DNA from: an uncultured Spirochaetota bacterium
GTDB lineage: Bacteria; Spirochaetota; Spirochaetia; JAFGXN01
NCBI GenBank assembly: GCA_944388995.1
Contig: CALXKN010000011.1
Coordinates: 1-55,829, forward strand
DNA length: 55,829 nucleotides
Direction: 5' to 3'
Shown here: piece by piece, positions 5,632 through 13,937 of the stretch
Numbering within the stretch: the stretch's first letter is position 1
Layout of the letters: every line of letters starts with the position of its first letter
Translations under genes and position numbers: made by a program
Notes under the pieces: generated by a model
What the model saw: only the letters and a program-made list of their open reading frames with translations
Database searches by the model: none
Told to the model about the DNA's origin: nothing

Positions 5632-8433
5632 GTGAAAGAGTATTTCAAGGAATTGAGTGATGTTTTGAACGCATACACGTTCGGCGACCTCTTTGAAGCA
5701 ATGCAGGCGGTGGAACTGTGCGATCAATTCATTACCGAAAACGAAATTCCGGAAGAGGAATTGGCGCAAATCCGCCTGTTAAAATCACTTCTGGAATCCA
5801 TCATTCTGCAAGGCTCGTCCGACGAACAGGAAGCTGAACTGCTCCGTATTAAAACGGCTTTGCTTGAAGGAACCGCAGCCGAAGCAGCGCCGGCGGTATA
5901 TGCGCACGGTACTCCCGCCGCAGAAGAGCCTCAAACGCCGACTGTTACGGCCGACGATCTGCTTGCGCAAATGGGCGGTGCCGAACCTAAACCGGCAGAC
6001 GACTTCGCCCGTTTACTCTCGCAGATGAACGATGCTGCCGACAATGACACTCAGCAACAGGACATCGACTCCCTTCTTTCACAAATGCAGCCGCCGCAGG
6101 ACGAAGCGCCGGCTCCGGAAGCCGAAAGCGCGGTACAGAAACAAGAAACGCCGACCGGACCAAAGCCCGGAGAGATGCTGACAATCACCGTCGACGACGG
6201 CGAGACGCTGAATTCGTTTGTAGCGGAATCGACGGAACATCTGGACAACGTTGAAAATCTGATAGTCAATTTGGAAGCCACTCACGACCGGGATACCGTC
6301 AACGCGATTTTTCGCGCCATGCACACCATTAAAGGAATCAGCGGCTTCATGGGATTTTCGCAGATTACGCAGCTTTCCCACCGTCTGGAAAATTTGCTTG
6401 ACGCCCTGCGGTCGAATGCCATCGACTTCTCTTCGGAGCTGATTGACATACTGCTTTCAGGATCCGATATTCTGCGTTCGATGATGAACGTTCTGGCGCC
6501 GGTCGCCGCCCGCTACGCCGCATCGGAGGATTCTTTCGCGGTGGAATTTCCGGTTTACGACCTCTCTTCCATTTTAAACGACATTGAACGGTACATGGCG
6601 GCGCACGAATGCGGTGCGGAAAACAGCACGCCGTCAGAGCCGGCAAAGAACGAAGAAATTCCGCAGCAGCAGCCCGCTGCCGAACCGGCGTTTTCTTCTC
6701 CGATGCTCACCGCCCGCGAATTGGGCGAATACGCGTACGCCGCCAAAAAAGTTTTCGAAAACCTCAAACGCTCACTGACGATATTGCAGCAAGACATTCG
6801 AAACGAAACCGCCATGCGGAAAATCGTAACGGAAATCAAGGCGCTGCACGACGCCTCACTGAAAACCGGCGTTCATGAAATCATCGATTTATGCGAACTG
6901 ATTACCAATAAAATCAACCGAGTATCCGACGGCTATACCCTCTCTTACTCGGACCTCTTTTCGAGCCTCAAAACGCTGGCCGATGCGTTTAAGGCGCGTA
7001 TGGCGCTTTTAAAACAAGCTGCCGGCGAAGAACTTCCGCCTCTCGAGGAAGAGAAGAACGAAGAAGCCGACAAAGCGGCGCCGATCAGCCCGGTTCAACC
7101 GCAGCCGTTTCAGATGCCGACCGCCGAACCTCAAACGGAGCGGCCGCAGTCGGAAGCGGTTCGCTCAACTGCTGCCGTACAGCCCGAACTGCCGAAAGCG
7201 AAGGAAGGCGACGCGCCTCAAAAGACGGTGAGCGCTGCCGCCGCTGCCGCCGATCCCGAAGCGACCACCGTCCGCGTCGACATCAAGAAAATGGATCGCC
7301 TCTTCAATATGATCGGAGAGCTGATTACCGCCCAAGACATTCTGATGGGACAGTTCGACGAAGAGGATGAAAGTCAGGAAATCCAAAAAGCGAAAAATAA
7401 CCTGGAAAACGTCACGCGCGAAATTCAGGAACTCTCCATGCAGCTGCGCATGATCACCCTTAACGGACTCTTCAACAAAATGAAGCGTCTGGTAAGAGAT
7501 TTGTCGCGCAAACTCCAAAAAGAGATCAATTTTACGATTTTCGGCCAGGACACGGAGATGGATCGCAACGTCATCGATGAGATTTCCGATCCGCTGATGC
7601 ACATCATCCGGAACGCGTTGGATCACGGAATCGAAACCGCCGCCGAACGGACGGCCGCAGGCAAACCGCCTGCGGGAAACGTCACGCTCGGAGCCAAATA
7701 TGAAGGCAACAGCATTGTTATCAGCGTCCGCGACGACGGTCGCGGTCTGGATAAAGCCAAAATCAAAGAAAAAGCGATTCGAAAAGGAATCATTACAGCC
7801 GAAGAGGCCGCGAATTTACCCGAACGCAAAATTTTTGATTTGATTATGCTGCCCGGTTTTTCAACATCCGAAACGGTTTCCGATATTTCCGGGCGCGGCG
7901 TTGGTATGGACGTTGTCAAGCGCAGCATCGACGCATTGCGCGGATCGGTCATCATCCGTTCCGAAGAGGGAAAAGGCAGTGAATTTCTTATCCGAATTCC
8001 GTTGACGCTCGCCATTATCGACGCCATCACCTTTAAGCTCGGCGAGCTGACATTCGCGACGCAGATCACCGACGTCGTCGAATTTTACAAATTCAGGGAA
8101 GAACAGGTGACCGTTACGCAGAGTCAGGGCGAAGTTTTAAACCTCCGCGGGGAACTGATTCCGATTTTGGAAATGAGCCGCTGCTACGGCACAGATCATC
8201 ACTATCAGCGTTACGAAGACGGCATCGCCATCATTGCCGCCTCTTCAAACGATAAAAAAGTCGCCGTTGTGGTCGACGAAATCATCGGCAACAAGCATTT
8301 GGTCATCAAACCTTTACCGCAGATGTTTGCCCACCTCTCCAGTTTGTCAGGATGCAGTATCCTGGCCGGCGGAGAGACCTGCCTGATTGTCGACATGAAT
8401 CGTCTGCTCGGCGAAACTCTGGATTTGGTTTAG
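5632..8433 (+). CDS. cheA: Chemotaxis histidine kinase CheA with extended N-terminus
   Basis: I chose the GTG at 5632 because GGGGA lies 7 bases upstream; a TTG at 5626 is only 1 base from that site. The 933-residue kinase is long for CheA (about 650-700). A helical N-terminal segment (about 1-80) is followed by an acidic/proline linker with three LLxQM motifs (ending at residues 114, 132 and 152). An HPt (P1) domain carries the phosphorylatable His231 (MHTIKG). A second HPt-like bundle around residues 370-460 has a histidine (His406, ALHDAS) but not the KG context. After another linker come the P3 dimerisation helices (from about 548), the P4 ATPase with N box (HIIRNALDHG), G1 (DDGRG) and G2 (GRGVGMD), and the C-terminal CheW-like P5. 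I do not see a normal P2 CheY-binding domain. It lies between cheY and cheW. Confidence 0.95.
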   Translation: MKEYFKELSDVLNAYTFGDLFEAMQAVELCDQFITENEIPEEELAQIRLLKSLLESIILQGSSDEQEAELLRIKTALLEGTAAEAAPAVYAHGTPAAEEPQTPTVTADDLLAQMGGAEPKPADDFARLLSQMNDAADNDTQQQDIDSLLSQMQPPQDEAPAPEAESAVQKQETPTGPKPGEMLTITVDDGETLNSFVAESTEHLDNVENLIVNLEATHDRDTVNAIFRAMHTIKGISGFMGFSQITQLSHRLENLLDALRSNAIDFSSELIDILLSGSDILRSMMNVLAPVAARYAASEDSFAVEFPVYDLSSILNDIERYMAAHECGAENSTPSEPAKNEEIPQQQPAAEPAFSSPMLTARELGEYAYAAKKVFENLKRSLTILQQDIRNETAMRKIVTEIKALHDASLKTGVHEIIDLCELITNKINRVSDGYTLSYSDLFSSLKTLADAFKARMALLKQAAGEELPPLEEEKNEEADKAAPISPVQPQPFQMPTAEPQTERPQSEAVRSTAAVQPELPKAKEGDAPQKTVSAAAAAADPEATTVRVDIKKMDRLFNMIGELITAQDILMGQFDEEDESQEIQKAKNNLENVTREIQELSMQLRMITLNGLFNKMKRLVRDLSRKLQKEINFTIFGQDTEMDRNVIDEISDPLMHIIRNALDHGIETAAERTAAGKPPAGNVTLGAKYEGNSIVISVRDDGRGLDKAKIKEKAIRKGIITAEEAANLPERKIFDLIMLPGFSTSETVSDISGRGVGMDVVKRSIDALRGSVIIRSEEGKGSEFLIRIPLTLAIIDAITFKLGELTFATQITDVVEFYKFREEQVTVTQSQGEVLNLRGELIPILEMSRCYGTDHHYQRYEDGIAIIAASSNDKKVAVVVDEIIGNKHLVIKPLPQMFAHLSSLSGCSILAGGETCLIVDMNRLLGETLDLV

Positions 8434-8443
8434 GAGGAGACTC

Positions 8444-8944
8444 ATGTCAAACGATTTCGAAGATTTTCTTGAAGACGATGAGGCCGAAGGGGATGCCGAT
8501 AAATTCCTGCTTTTTGATTTGGGCGAAGAATCTTACGGAATTCCGATTTCGAACATCATTCAGATCGTCGAGATGCAGCCGATTACCCACATTCCCGATA
8601 TGCCGAATTATGTAAAAGGCATCATCAACATCCGCGGACAGATCATTCCCACCATTGATTTAAGAAGCCGCTTTCATCTGCCGGAAAAGGAAGCCGACAA
8701 AAAAACCTGTATCGTCATCATTGCCCATGAAAACAACTCCATGGGACTGATCGTCGACACGGTTTCGGAAGTCCGCTCGATTCCCAAAGATGACGTAGCG
8801 CCGGCGCCGCAGGTAAAAAATCTGAGCATCAACGAGCGTTATATTTTAGGGTTGGCTAAAGTCGGAGACGAAGTCAAAATTTTACTGGATATCAACAAAC
8901 TGTTCTCCGAACAGGATGTTCAAGCAATAGCAAATCGCATTTAA
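8444..8944 (+). CDS. cheW: Chemotaxis coupling protein CheW
   Basis: A 166-residue single CheW domain with an acidic N-terminal extension of about 20 residues. Recognisable segments are FDLGEESYGIPISNIIQIVE, the VKGIINIRGQIIPTIDLR strand pair and GLIVDTVSEVRSIP, all standard for the two-barrel CheW fold. It should link the receptor at 8961-11180 to CheA. A strong AGGAG site precedes the ATG, 10 bases after the cheA stop. Confidence 0.95.
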   Translation: MSNDFEDFLEDDEAEGDADKFLLFDLGEESYGIPISNIIQIVEMQPITHIPDMPNYVKGIINIRGQIIPTIDLRSRFHLPEKEADKKTCIVIIAHENNSMGLIVDTVSEVRSIPKDDVAPAPQVKNLSINERYILGLAKVGDEVKILLDINKLFSEQDVQAIANRI

Positions 8945-8960
8945 GCAGGAGGCGAGAAAA

Positions 8961-11180
8961 ATGAAAAAGACTTTTAAAGTATCAATGATTTTACCGATTG
9001 CCATCACAACGGCATTCGGCATCTTCATTGCCGTTTTGATTACAGCCCTGGTTGGAATGTTTCAGGTCCGCCAGCAGGTGCAAAACATGAACATGGTTTC
9101 CGGTGAAACCGTATTGAGAGAACTGAATGAAAAAGTCGCCGTGGAGATCGCGGTTGACCAGACGCTGATCGACGGCGTGATGAGTTCCTTCAAACTGAAC
9201 AACAATCAGTTTGACATTCCGCTGTTTGCCGAAATGGTCGAAACGATGTTTCTTCAAAAACGGGAAAGCGCATTGTGTGTCGATATTATTCTGTTCGACG
9301 GCTACTTTCTCTACCACCCGATTATCGAAAATTTACGCAACGACCTGAATAACGTCGCCGTCCGCGTTCTGCGCGACCGCGTCGGCAACATTTACCGCGA
9401 TTTTCTGCCTTCCGAAGAGTACCGCAACGGCGAATGGTACACGACGGTGAAAGAAACCGAACAAATGACCATTACCACGCCGCGGCTGGCAAACCTGAAA
9501 AGCTACGGCGACATTTACGTCTTTGAAATATCGTTTCCGTTGATGGCAGGCGAAACTTTTGTCGGCGCCGCTTCGTTCACCTACGAGATGTCAAAAATCG
9601 CCTACATTTCCCCCGAGGATATGAACGCCAACAACGGCGAACAGTGGTTTGCCGTCGATCCGACCGGAACGATCATCACCCATACCCAGGATAAATTCGT
9701 GCAGAGCAATGCGGCCGATTATTTTGGCGCCGAAAACGTCCGAACAATTGAAAACACGTTTAAAAATACGCGTCAGTTTGACGGAACGCTGCGTTTTGAC
9801 GACGGCAGCTGGGTCTGTTCGATTTTCCCGCTGCAGCTGGGCACGACCGTTAAAGAAGGTTTTGTCGGTTTCGCAATGCCGTCAGCCGTTCTGGTCAAAG
9901 CAACGCTGATTCCGCTGCTCTCCGGACTGGGAATCGGTATCGCGGTTCTGATTGTCGTTCTGGTGATTATTTATATCCTGAACAACCGGCTGGCAAAATA
10001 CATTGTGCAGTTAAAGGATACGGCGATCGAAATTGCAGGCGGTAACTACAGCGTCAACCCGCCGAAACTCCCCTTCTCTTCCAAAGACAACGAGCTGGTC
10101 ATCTTCGGCGAAGAACTCGATAAAATGATTGAGTCGATCCGTTACAAAGAGAAAGTCGTCCGCGTCATCGCCAACAAGGATTTAACGATGAACATCGATT
10201 TGGCGTCCGACAAGGACGAATTAGGAAAGATTCTCAAAGGTCTGCAGGTTGCGCTGACGGATTTCTTCGTTCAGACCGACATCGCCGTCAATCAGGTGAA
10301 AAACGGTTCGCAGCAGATTGCCGACGCTTCGCAGTCGCAGTCGCAGGGAGCGACCGAACAGGCGTCCGCAGTCGAAGAAATTTCCGCATCACTGCATGAA
10401 ATCAATGTTCAATCGAAAAACAATGCCGACAAGTCCGATGAGGCCAACAAGTACGCCCGGTTGGCGGCCGACTACGCCCGCGCCGGAAACGAAAAAATGA
10501 ACGTGCTGCTCGGATTAATGAACGAAATTTCGCAGGCGTCGGATCAGACGAAAGCGGTGGTCAAGGCGATCGACGAAATCGCATTCCAAACCAACCTGTT
10601 GGCATTGAACGCTAACGTGGAAGCCGCCCGTGCCGGAAAATACGGCCGCGGATTCGGAGTGGTTGCCGAAGAAGTCCGCAATTTGGCGAAAAAATCGGCG
10701 CAAAGCGTTTTGGAAACCCAGACCATCGTCGATACCATCATCGGAAAGATCCAGGATTCGGTTCAGTTTGCCAATGACACGTCAAAACAGCTGACCGATA
10801 TTCTGAAAGAAGCCGACGTCACCTCGCAGTACCTGCAGGAGATTGCGGTTGCTTCCAAAGAGCAAAGCCAGGGTATCGAACAGATTTCCAAAGCTATCGG
10901 ACAGATTGAACAGGTTACGCAGTCCAACAGCGCCAATGCGGAAGAAGGGGCTGCGGCGGCCGAAGAGTTGGCGGCTCAGGCCGTTCAGCTCCACAGCCAG
11001 TTGGAAGAGATCAAGTTTGAAAGAACCGCCGGAGCGGCCGCGCAGAATTACGCTTCGACTTTCTTGCAGAACGCCCATGCCTCCGTTGCCGCGCAAAAAG
11101 ACGGATCCGATGATTTAAGCGCTGCGCCGTCGGCTGCCTCGGTCATTAAACTGGACGACAGCGATTATGGAAATTTCTAA
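8961..11180 (+). CDS. Methyl-accepting chemotaxis protein with periplasmic Cache-type sensor
   Basis: A 739-residue receptor after a GGAGG site. One membrane helix lies near residues 8-32, followed by a periplasmic sensor of about 275 residues that looks like a double-Cache domain, and a second helix near 313-337. A HAMP-like linker and the cytoplasmic methylation/signalling domain follow. The signalling tip is highly conserved (EIAFQTNLLALNANVEAARAG, about residue 538 onward). No NWETF-type pentapeptide for CheR/CheB tethering is present at the C-terminus, which ends in an acidic tail. The ligand cannot be predicted. Its 3' end overlaps cheR by 14 bases. Confidence 0.93.
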   Translation: MKKTFKVSMILPIAITTAFGIFIAVLITALVGMFQVRQQVQNMNMVSGETVLRELNEKVAVEIAVDQTLIDGVMSSFKLNNNQFDIPLFAEMVETMFLQKRESALCVDIILFDGYFLYHPIIENLRNDLNNVAVRVLRDRVGNIYRDFLPSEEYRNGEWYTTVKETEQMTITTPRLANLKSYGDIYVFEISFPLMAGETFVGAASFTYEMSKIAYISPEDMNANNGEQWFAVDPTGTIITHTQDKFVQSNAADYFGAENVRTIENTFKNTRQFDGTLRFDDGSWVCSIFPLQLGTTVKEGFVGFAMPSAVLVKATLIPLLSGLGIGIAVLIVVLVIIYILNNRLAKYIVQLKDTAIEIAGGNYSVNPPKLPFSSKDNELVIFGEELDKMIESIRYKEKVVRVIANKDLTMNIDLASDKDELGKILKGLQVALTDFFVQTDIAVNQVKNGSQQIADASQSQSQGATEQASAVEEISASLHEINVQSKNNADKSDEANKYARLAADYARAGNEKMNVLLGLMNEISQASDQTKAVVKAIDEIAFQTNLLALNANVEAARAGKYGRGFGVVAEEVRNLAKKSAQSVLETQTIVDTIIGKIQDSVQFANDTSKQLTDILKEADVTSQYLQEIAVASKEQSQGIEQISKAIGQIEQVTQSNSANAEEGAAAAEELAAQAVQLHSQLEEIKFERTAGAAAQNYASTFLQNAHASVAAQKDGSDDLSAAPSAASVIKLDDSDYGNF

Positions 11181-12024
11181 TACGGACACCATCCGTATTT
11201 CGGACGCCGAATTCCACATGATAGCCGATTTCGTCTATCGGGAATTCGGCATCCGTTTTGCCGATCAAAAAAAGTCTCTCGTTGAAGGCCGTCTGAGTAA
11301 AGTGTGGAAAGAGGGGAATTACCGCTCTATCCGCGCTTACCTGGACGACGTCAAAAGCGATCAGTCGGGAAAACGGCTGCAGGAAATGATGAACCGTTTG
11401 ACGACAAACCACTCTTATTTTTTCCGCGAAAATCAGCTACTGACCTACTTCTCCCAAAACGGCGGATTCCAGTCATTGGGATATATGCCGCGGCAGACTC
11501 ATCCCGATATCCGTATCTGGAGCGCCGGCTGTTCGGAAGGACAGGAACCGTACTCGCTCGCCATTACTTTATTGGAATACTTCGGCCCTCATCTGAAGGC
11601 CGTCAATCCGTTTATTCTGGCAACGGACATCTCGGAACGCGCATTAATGAAAGCCGTCAACGGCGTTTATTCCAAATCCGAAATTACAGAAAACGTCAAT
11701 AAACTTTTTTTGGTCAACTACTTCGAGCACGTCGGCAGCGACGAATACCGGGTAAAAAAATCCATCCGCGATATGATTCTGTTCCGCCGGCTCAATTTGA
11801 ATAACGACGCCTATCCGTTCAAGAACCGGTTCGACATTATTTACTGCCGCAACGTGATGATTTACTTTGACAACGACTCCAAAGAGCGGATTATCAACCG
11901 GTTTTACCGATACATCAAACCGGGCGGCTATCTGGTTATCGGGTGTTCCGAATCGATCAACAACCTGAAGCACCCTTTTAAACAAGTCGCCGGTTCTATT
12001 TACAGGAAGATTGAAAAAATATGA
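11167..12024 (+). CDS. cheR: Chemotaxis protein methyltransferase CheR
   Basis: A 285-residue protein with the N-terminal helical CheR domain and a SAM-binding Rossmann domain. The motif WSAGCSEGQEPYSLA binds S-adenosylmethionine, ATDISERAL is the second SAM contact, and YCRNVMIYF closes the family signature. It methylates receptor glutamates for adaptation, opposing CheB. The ATG lies within the 3' end of the receptor gene, and the stop overlaps the cheB ATG by 4 bases, consistent with coupled translation. Confidence 0.95.
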   Translation: MEISNTDTIRISDAEFHMIADFVYREFGIRFADQKKSLVEGRLSKVWKEGNYRSIRAYLDDVKSDQSGKRLQEMMNRLTTNHSYFFRENQLLTYFSQNGGFQSLGYMPRQTHPDIRIWSAGCSEGQEPYSLAITLLEYFGPHLKAVNPFILATDISERALMKAVNGVYSKSEITENVNKLFLVNYFEHVGSDEYRVKKSIRDMILFRRLNLNNDAYPFKNRFDIIYCRNVMIYFDNDSKERIINRFYRYIKPGGYLVIGCSESINNLKHPFKQVAGSIYRKIEKI

Positions 12025-13562: not shown

Positions 13563-13937
13563 ATGAGCAAAACTGTTTTAATTGTAGATGATTCGGCGAC
13601 GCAGCGTCTGATGCTGAAAAAAATTTTAAAGATGATCGGATTAACCGATATCGTCATTAAAGAAGCCTCCAACGGTAAAGAGGCGCTTGAAATTGTCAAA
13701 TCGCAACCCATTTCCCTGATTTTAACCGATTTGAACATGCCGACAATGAGCGGAGAAGAGCTGATAGCCACTTTAAAATCCGAATCGGACACCTGCAACC
13801 TGCCGATTATCGTCATTACATCAAAAGGCGCCGAAAATATGCAAATTCAGATGATGGAAGTCGGTATTGACGGAATTTTGATGAAACCGTTCGAACCGGA
13901 ACAGTTGGCAACTTTAATCCAACACATAGGAGAGTAA
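13563..13937 (+). CDS. cheY: Second CheY-type response regulator
   Basis: A 124-residue receiver domain with Asp9/Asp10, phosphoacceptor Asp56 (LTDLNMP), Thr86 and Lys108. It is not closely similar to the CheY at 5267-5629. It precedes the CheX-like phosphatase by 2 bases after a GGGAGAAAGAG ribosome site; in Treponema and Borrelia a cheX-cheY pair works together on the motor, so this copy may be the motor-binding one. That division of labour is inference. Confidence 0.92.
   Translation: MSKTVLIVDDSATQRLMLKKILKMIGLTDIVIKEASNGKEALEIVKSQPISLILTDLNMPTMSGEELIATLKSESDTCNLPIIVITSKGAENMQIQMMEVGIDGILMKPFEPEQLATLIQHIGE

Follow-up and report, generated by a model that had tools for sequence, protein, structure and literature searches.

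In the histidine kinase CheA, P2 (PF07194) is a folded domain placed between P1 and P3, whose role is to keep CheY near the HPt. According to a survey of this domain (PMC10782961), P2 is missing in about 52% of CheAs, its deletion from E. coli CheA slows phosphotransfer without abolishing it, and profile-profile searches are more sensitive than HMMER in detecting it. How the P2-less kinases, more than half of all CheAs, keep CheY near the HPt is the question touched by this work. Short peptides that bind CheY are found also outside CheA. Indeed, the LSQxEIDALL stretch of FliM and FliY, present in a single N-terminal copy, is a site for CheY-P that is disordered until bound (PMC6700473; PMC9126983), and the CheZ peptide (tail QVDDLLDSLGF) occurs once, at the C-terminal end of the protein, and finishes with a Phe residue. 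Lastly, the CheA-LID of Vibrio, a lineage-restricted extra segment of the kinase, recruits a partner by binding the CheW-like AIF domain of ParP (PMC5706961).

The spirochaete CheA described here carries three short peptides in a linker that precedes the HPt. The likeness to P2 would concern the proposed role only, i.e., the keeping of CheY near the HPt; P2 is folded and lies between P1 and P3, whereas these peptides are unfolded and lie before P1. As in the P2-less CheAs of the survey, P2 is absent and an unstructured linker is present; a repeated peptide, in contrast, is not mentioned in the parts of that source considered here (PMC10782961). The parallel with the Vibrio CheA-LID is one of description.

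Organization of the Chemotaxis Locus and Domain Structure of CheA

The window, i.e., the whole stretch of 55,829 nucleotides analyzed in this work, belongs to a spirochaete genome of 1.93 Mb and embeds a chemotaxis operon with the order ORF 4731–5270, cheY1, cheA, cheW, MCP, cheR, cheB, cheD, cheY2, cheX. This operon plan recurs in other spirochaetes, together with a CheA whose N-terminal domain is related to that of the window. The two candidate receiver partners of CheA are the products of cheY1 (5267–5629, + strand; Pfam Response_reg) and cheY2 (13563–13937, + strand; Pfam Response_reg and alignment). The C-terminal part of the MCP (10782–11180, + strand) ends in DDSDYGNF; this acidic-aromatic tail might serve as a tether of the CheR type. 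The genome harbors a second chemotaxis cluster (contig C2, locus L084), containing a P2-bearing CheA, a CheW-CheR-like fusion, a CheX-like protein, and a CheY, the members of which were named by eye, except for CheA, which was identified by Pfam.

The gene cheA (5632–8433, + strand) codes for a protein of 933 amino acids, and its GTG start codon at position 5632 pairs, in the alignment, with the initiator Met of the orthologue from G002, a genome of the same family. The protein is a CheA histidine kinase, with HPt (residues 192–281), H-kinase_dim (545–604), HATPase_c (652–792), and CheW (798–927) domains in this order, all above the Pfam cut-off. The first part of the molecule is a helical domain (residues 1–82; 5632–5877, + strand) which the alignment reveals to be common to the spirochaete orthologues, and which was modelled as four helices (pLDDT 53–68) and matched no Pfam family. 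It is followed by a low-complexity linker (residues 81–184; 5872–6183, + strand) including the insertion of about 65 residues discussed below (pLDDT below 50 at residues 80–176), and then by the HPt (P1) domain (6205–6474, + strand; Pfam Hpt, 1.9e-15), whose His231 is invariant. The interval between HPt and P3 contains a helical, HPt-like region (residues 361–463; 6712–7020, + strand), where most orthologues possess a second HPt; the HxxKG signature (HTIKGNAG in the orthologues) has been lost in the CheA of the window. A second low-complexity linker leads to the P3-P4-P5 core, that is, the dimerization, HATPase, and CheW-like domains found by Pfam (7264–8412, + strand), sharing 44–58% identity with the spirochaete orthologues.

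Between the second HPt and P3, five orthologues (L007, L008, L009, L010, and L011) exhibit two tandem LGE[IL]LVEMG...ALxxQ units, which are absent from the CheA of the window. We take these units to recall the c-di-GMP-binding motif of MshEN/GspE N-terminal domains; Pfam did not detect MshEN in the CheA orthologues.

Absence of a P2 Domain

The preliminary description of this locus had reported that no normal P2 lies between P1 and P3, and the searches carried out here agree with this finding. Pfam finds no P2 in the whole CheA, and an HMM search for this domain revealed none in the pieces 1–185 and 307–543 at E values up to 1; as a positive control, the second CheA of the genome (contig C2) was recognized as PF07194 at 43 bits. 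A P2 hidden elsewhere in the protein was also considered and rejected on the basis of the absence of any Pfam match and of the model of the interval between HPt and P3, composed of helices and not of an alpha/beta domain. The lack of P2 is common in this kinase family. Two CheAs of other spirochaetes were also scanned with Pfam (L150, and L009 from G002), and P2 was found in neither.

The further idea that the repeats stand in place of a folded P2 is not supported. It is not literally right because the repeats sit before the HPt, whereas the P2 slot is the one between P1 and P3. Moreover, other spirochaete orthologues possess neither P2 nor the repeats, which therefore are not needed to compensate for the absence of P2.

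The LLxQM Repeats of the Linker

The translation places three short repeats in the linker before the HPt, and their last residues (114, 132, and 152) coincide exactly with those previously described. Their LLxQM cores are LLAQM (residues 110–114; 5959–5973), LLSQM (128–132; 6013–6027), and LLSQM (148–152; 6073–6087), embedded in motif 1 (ADDLLAQMG, residues 107–115; 5950–5976, + strand), motif 2 (DDFARLLSQMN, residues 123–133; 5998–6030, + strand), and motif 3 (QQDIDSLLSQMQ, residues 142–153; 6055–6090, + strand). The surrounding linker abounds in A, P, Q, D, T, and E, and the motifs collect six of the seven Leu, three of the four Met, the sole Ile, and the sole Phe of its 104 residues (81–184). 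On the whole, 11 of the 17 large hydrophobic residues fall within 27 of the 104 linker positions (P = 0.00025, a value that is only indicative because the windows were picked once the motifs had been seen).

The repeats did not arise by chance. When the linker was shuffled 200,000 times, at least one LLxQM was obtained in 320 cases and two or more in none. A stricter control, counting any pattern with four fixed positions in five that occurs at least three times, was satisfied by 112 of 20,000 shuffles (0.6%) owing to the low complexity of the linker; this represents a caveat to the exclusion of a chance origin. Nor is a recent DNA duplication supported as the source of the repeats; only 2 of 10 synonymous codon pairs are identical among the motifs, 3.4 being expected from the codon usage of the operon. 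Since the codons are scrambled, the repeats have the peptide in common, with no trace of recent copying at the DNA level.

The AlphaFold2 model of CheA, built with five sequences, is poor (mean pLDDT 50). The only helices modelled in the linker (residues 80–176) correspond to residues 107–113, 123–134, and 142–150, that is, one per motif, with very low confidence, and this does no more than suggest a helical propensity of the three motifs. The same model sets the linker against no CheA domain, again with low confidence.

The possibility that LLxQM might be a docking motif used throughout the genome was examined and discarded. The pattern has 41 matches in the genome vs. 69 for a reversed control pattern, and the clear protein matches that were inspected are isolated, falling in unrelated enzymes, in a glycosidase-like N-terminus, and in a GGDEF helix. 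A search of the PDB sequences with 52 residues of the linker gave no significant match, and a literature search on CheA with short linear motifs retrieved no paper.

Similarity to CheY-Binding Peptides

The preliminary description had also proposed that the repeats mimic the CheY-docking peptide of FliM. At the level of sequence, this proposal is supported by motif 3, which carries the FliM/FliY core, and in part by motif 1, which is closer to the CheZ tail; motif 2 does not fit. In this genome, FliM and FliY begin with LSQDEIDELL and LSQEEIDALL, respectively, and motif 3 (QQDIDSLLSQM) likewise possesses an I-D-x-L-L core after an acidic residue and a Gln. The EIDxLL-like core is not strictly present in motifs 1 and 2, and motif 2 (FARLLSQM) retains the hydrophobic pattern only, the key Asp of the IDxLL core being missing. 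Both the FliM/FliY peptide and the motifs are short peptides in a disordered region; however, the former exists in one N-terminal copy, whereas the linker contains three copies sharing LLxQM, two of which (motifs 1 and 2) depart from the FliM/FliY sequence. In addition, the genome codes for unrelated proteins that also contain [DE]IDxLL (e.g., a recombinase-like and a PurN-like protein, named by eye from their sequences), and a single match means little because this core has a sizeable genomic background.

Motif 1 matches the E. coli CheZ tail VASQDQVDDLLDSLGF, as read from the PDB entry 1KMI. The correspondence is between D-D-L-L-x-x-L-G in CheZ and D-D-L-L-x-x-M-G in motif 1. Nevertheless, motif 1 is not a CheZ C-terminal peptide proper, being internal to CheA and having no final Phe. 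A probe with an approximate E. coli cheZ DNA sequence gave no match.

As for the receivers, we compared positions 95, 106, and 108 (E. coli numbering), which we take to be FliM contacts, using as a reference an E. coli CheY sequence that we assume to be correct. CheY1 has Lys at 95, Trp at the position of Tyr106, and Gln at 108; E. coli CheY has Ile95 and Val108, and the orthologous CheYs keep Val at 108. Variants of CheY with the Y106W replacement have been studied together with the FliM peptide, according to titles cited in PMC9126983.

Distribution of the Insertion

In the alignment of the orthologues, about 65 residues are inserted in the linker of the window's lineage; in the other aligned sequences, including that from G002, the genome of the same family, the linker is shorter and has no motifs. 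When the motif segment was compared with 395 Spirochaetia genomes, the match was significant only in the sister genome (G001), the others having E values of at least 0.05, and a search of viral contigs for CheA relatives gave none. The genus is represented by two nearly identical genomes and the order by three genomes in the library. The motifs are absent outside the genus and, within it, could be compared only between these two genomes. In this comparison the linker differs by three non-synonymous and no synonymous changes, one of which is A126T in motif 2. On present data the repeats are genus-private, which weakens the idea of a function and does not refute it.

The divergence between the two genomes is mosaic. 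The synonymous divergence of cheA from the sister locus (L001) is 0.25 in the P3-P5 region, compared with 0 to 0.11 over residues 1–543, and the mosaic pattern in the region 7200–11600 therefore suggests recombination.

Possible Partners of the Repeats

Judging from their sequence, the repeats look like short docking helices. The explanation that we favor, tentatively and well short of considering it probable, is that the genus-specific insertion carries three docking peptides that become helical by induced fit, a receiver of the CheY type being their most likely partner. According to this idea, the CheA linker would have gained in this genus a segment of about 65 residues presenting three copies of a short peptide; each of them, disordered alone, would fold on the partner into an amphipathic helix (h-x-x-LL-x-Q-M), and the partner, a receiver of the CheY type, would be bound through the surface that receives the FliM peptide (alpha4-beta5-alpha5) and the CheZ peptide. 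Several weak sites might thus make the receiver more concentrated in the vicinity of the HPt histidine. The existence of a partner, its identity as CheY, and an effect on phosphotransfer are what we infer. In favor of CheY docking we count the occurrence of the repeats far above chance, their scrambled codons, the single helix predicted for each motif, the fit of motif 3 to FliM/FliY and of motif 1 to CheZ, the absence of P2, and the Trp of CheY1 at the position of Tyr106. Against it we count the orthologues outside the genus that lack both the motifs and P2, the missing Asp of motif 2, the residues of CheY1 at positions 95 (Lys) and 108 (Gln), the presence of [DE]IDxLL in unrelated proteins, the location of the motifs before the HPt and not in the P2 slot, and the very low confidence of the linker model. 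The broader reading, by which a P2-less CheA lineage would have re-evolved CheY docking through a repeated FliM/CheZ-like linear motif, as a convergent, multivalent, and unfolded substitute, seems to us rather doubtful. If linear peptides of this kind can replace a folded docking domain, then disordered CheA linkers could be read by a simple and testable rule, and multivalent CheY capture could be studied in a clean system; if they bind something else, then they would represent a lineage-specific array or regulatory element.

In fact, it is possible, and nearly as likely as CheY (which remains the best single guess), that the docking helices recognize an internal or scaffold partner: one of the domains of CheA itself (the N-terminal bundle, the HPt-like bundle, or P5), CheW, or a scaffold, in the same way as the Vibrio CheA-LID binds the ParP AIF domain, a precedent for a lineage-restricted CheA segment that interacts with a CheW-like domain (PMC5706961). 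The pattern common to all three copies is LLxQM and not IDxLL, motif 2 fits neither FliM nor CheZ, and the signature of the second HPt has also been lost in this lineage, the internal layout of CheA having therefore been reworked. On the other hand, motif 1 and motif 3 each recall a CheY-binding peptide, a different one in the two cases, and the low-confidence model does not set the linker on any domain.

We regard as unlikely the idea that the repeats are a by-product of the growth of a low-complexity linker, in which helix-capping pieces would tune length and flexibility with no specific partner. The low complexity of the linker, the 0.6% of shuffles reaching some four-in-five pattern at least three times, the restriction of the insertion to one genus, and the changes in the sister linker (three non-synonymous, one of them in motif 2, and none synonymous) would agree with it; however, LLxQM never appeared twice in 200,000 shuffles, and the codons do not bear the trace of recent copying that slippage would leave. 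It is very improbable that the receiver captured by the linker is the CheY of the contig C2 system, as cross-talk or as a CheY-P sink and not as docking of its own CheY. In favor of this possibility, a P2-bearing CheA belongs to a second system of this genome, the residues of the C2 CheY at E. coli positions 95, 106, and 108 (Val, Tyr, and Val) bring it nearer than CheY1 to a FliM binder, and the sequence of motif 3 agrees with FliM/FliY. Against it, the fit to FliM is good in only one of the three motifs.

The ORF Upstream of cheY1

The ORF 4731–5270 (+ strand), located directly upstream of cheY1, codes for a small membrane-anchored protein with LQFEDYTAQIRDHI, a stretch that we assume to resemble the catalytic one of CheZ (FQDLTGQV). 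In other spirochaetes this position is occupied by an MCP-like protein in which LQFQDxxRQ occurs late in the sequence; the protein of the window has no MCP domain, yet LQFEDYTAQI is kept. Pfam did not call it CheZ, and in the counterpart from another genome (G003) the CheZ profile falls on the LQFQDxxRQ stretch with a weak score, below the cut-off (E 0.0083). The structure model of the protein is of poor quality; on the basis of its sequence, it is possibly a candidate CheY-P phosphatase. The region 4600–5250 shares about 63% DNA identity with the sister genome (L001), in surroundings that are about 99% identical (about 99.5% across the greater part of the first 4.6 kb); the two proteins share 60% identity, LQFEDYTAQIR being unchanged, and we read the divergence of this region as an allele replacement.
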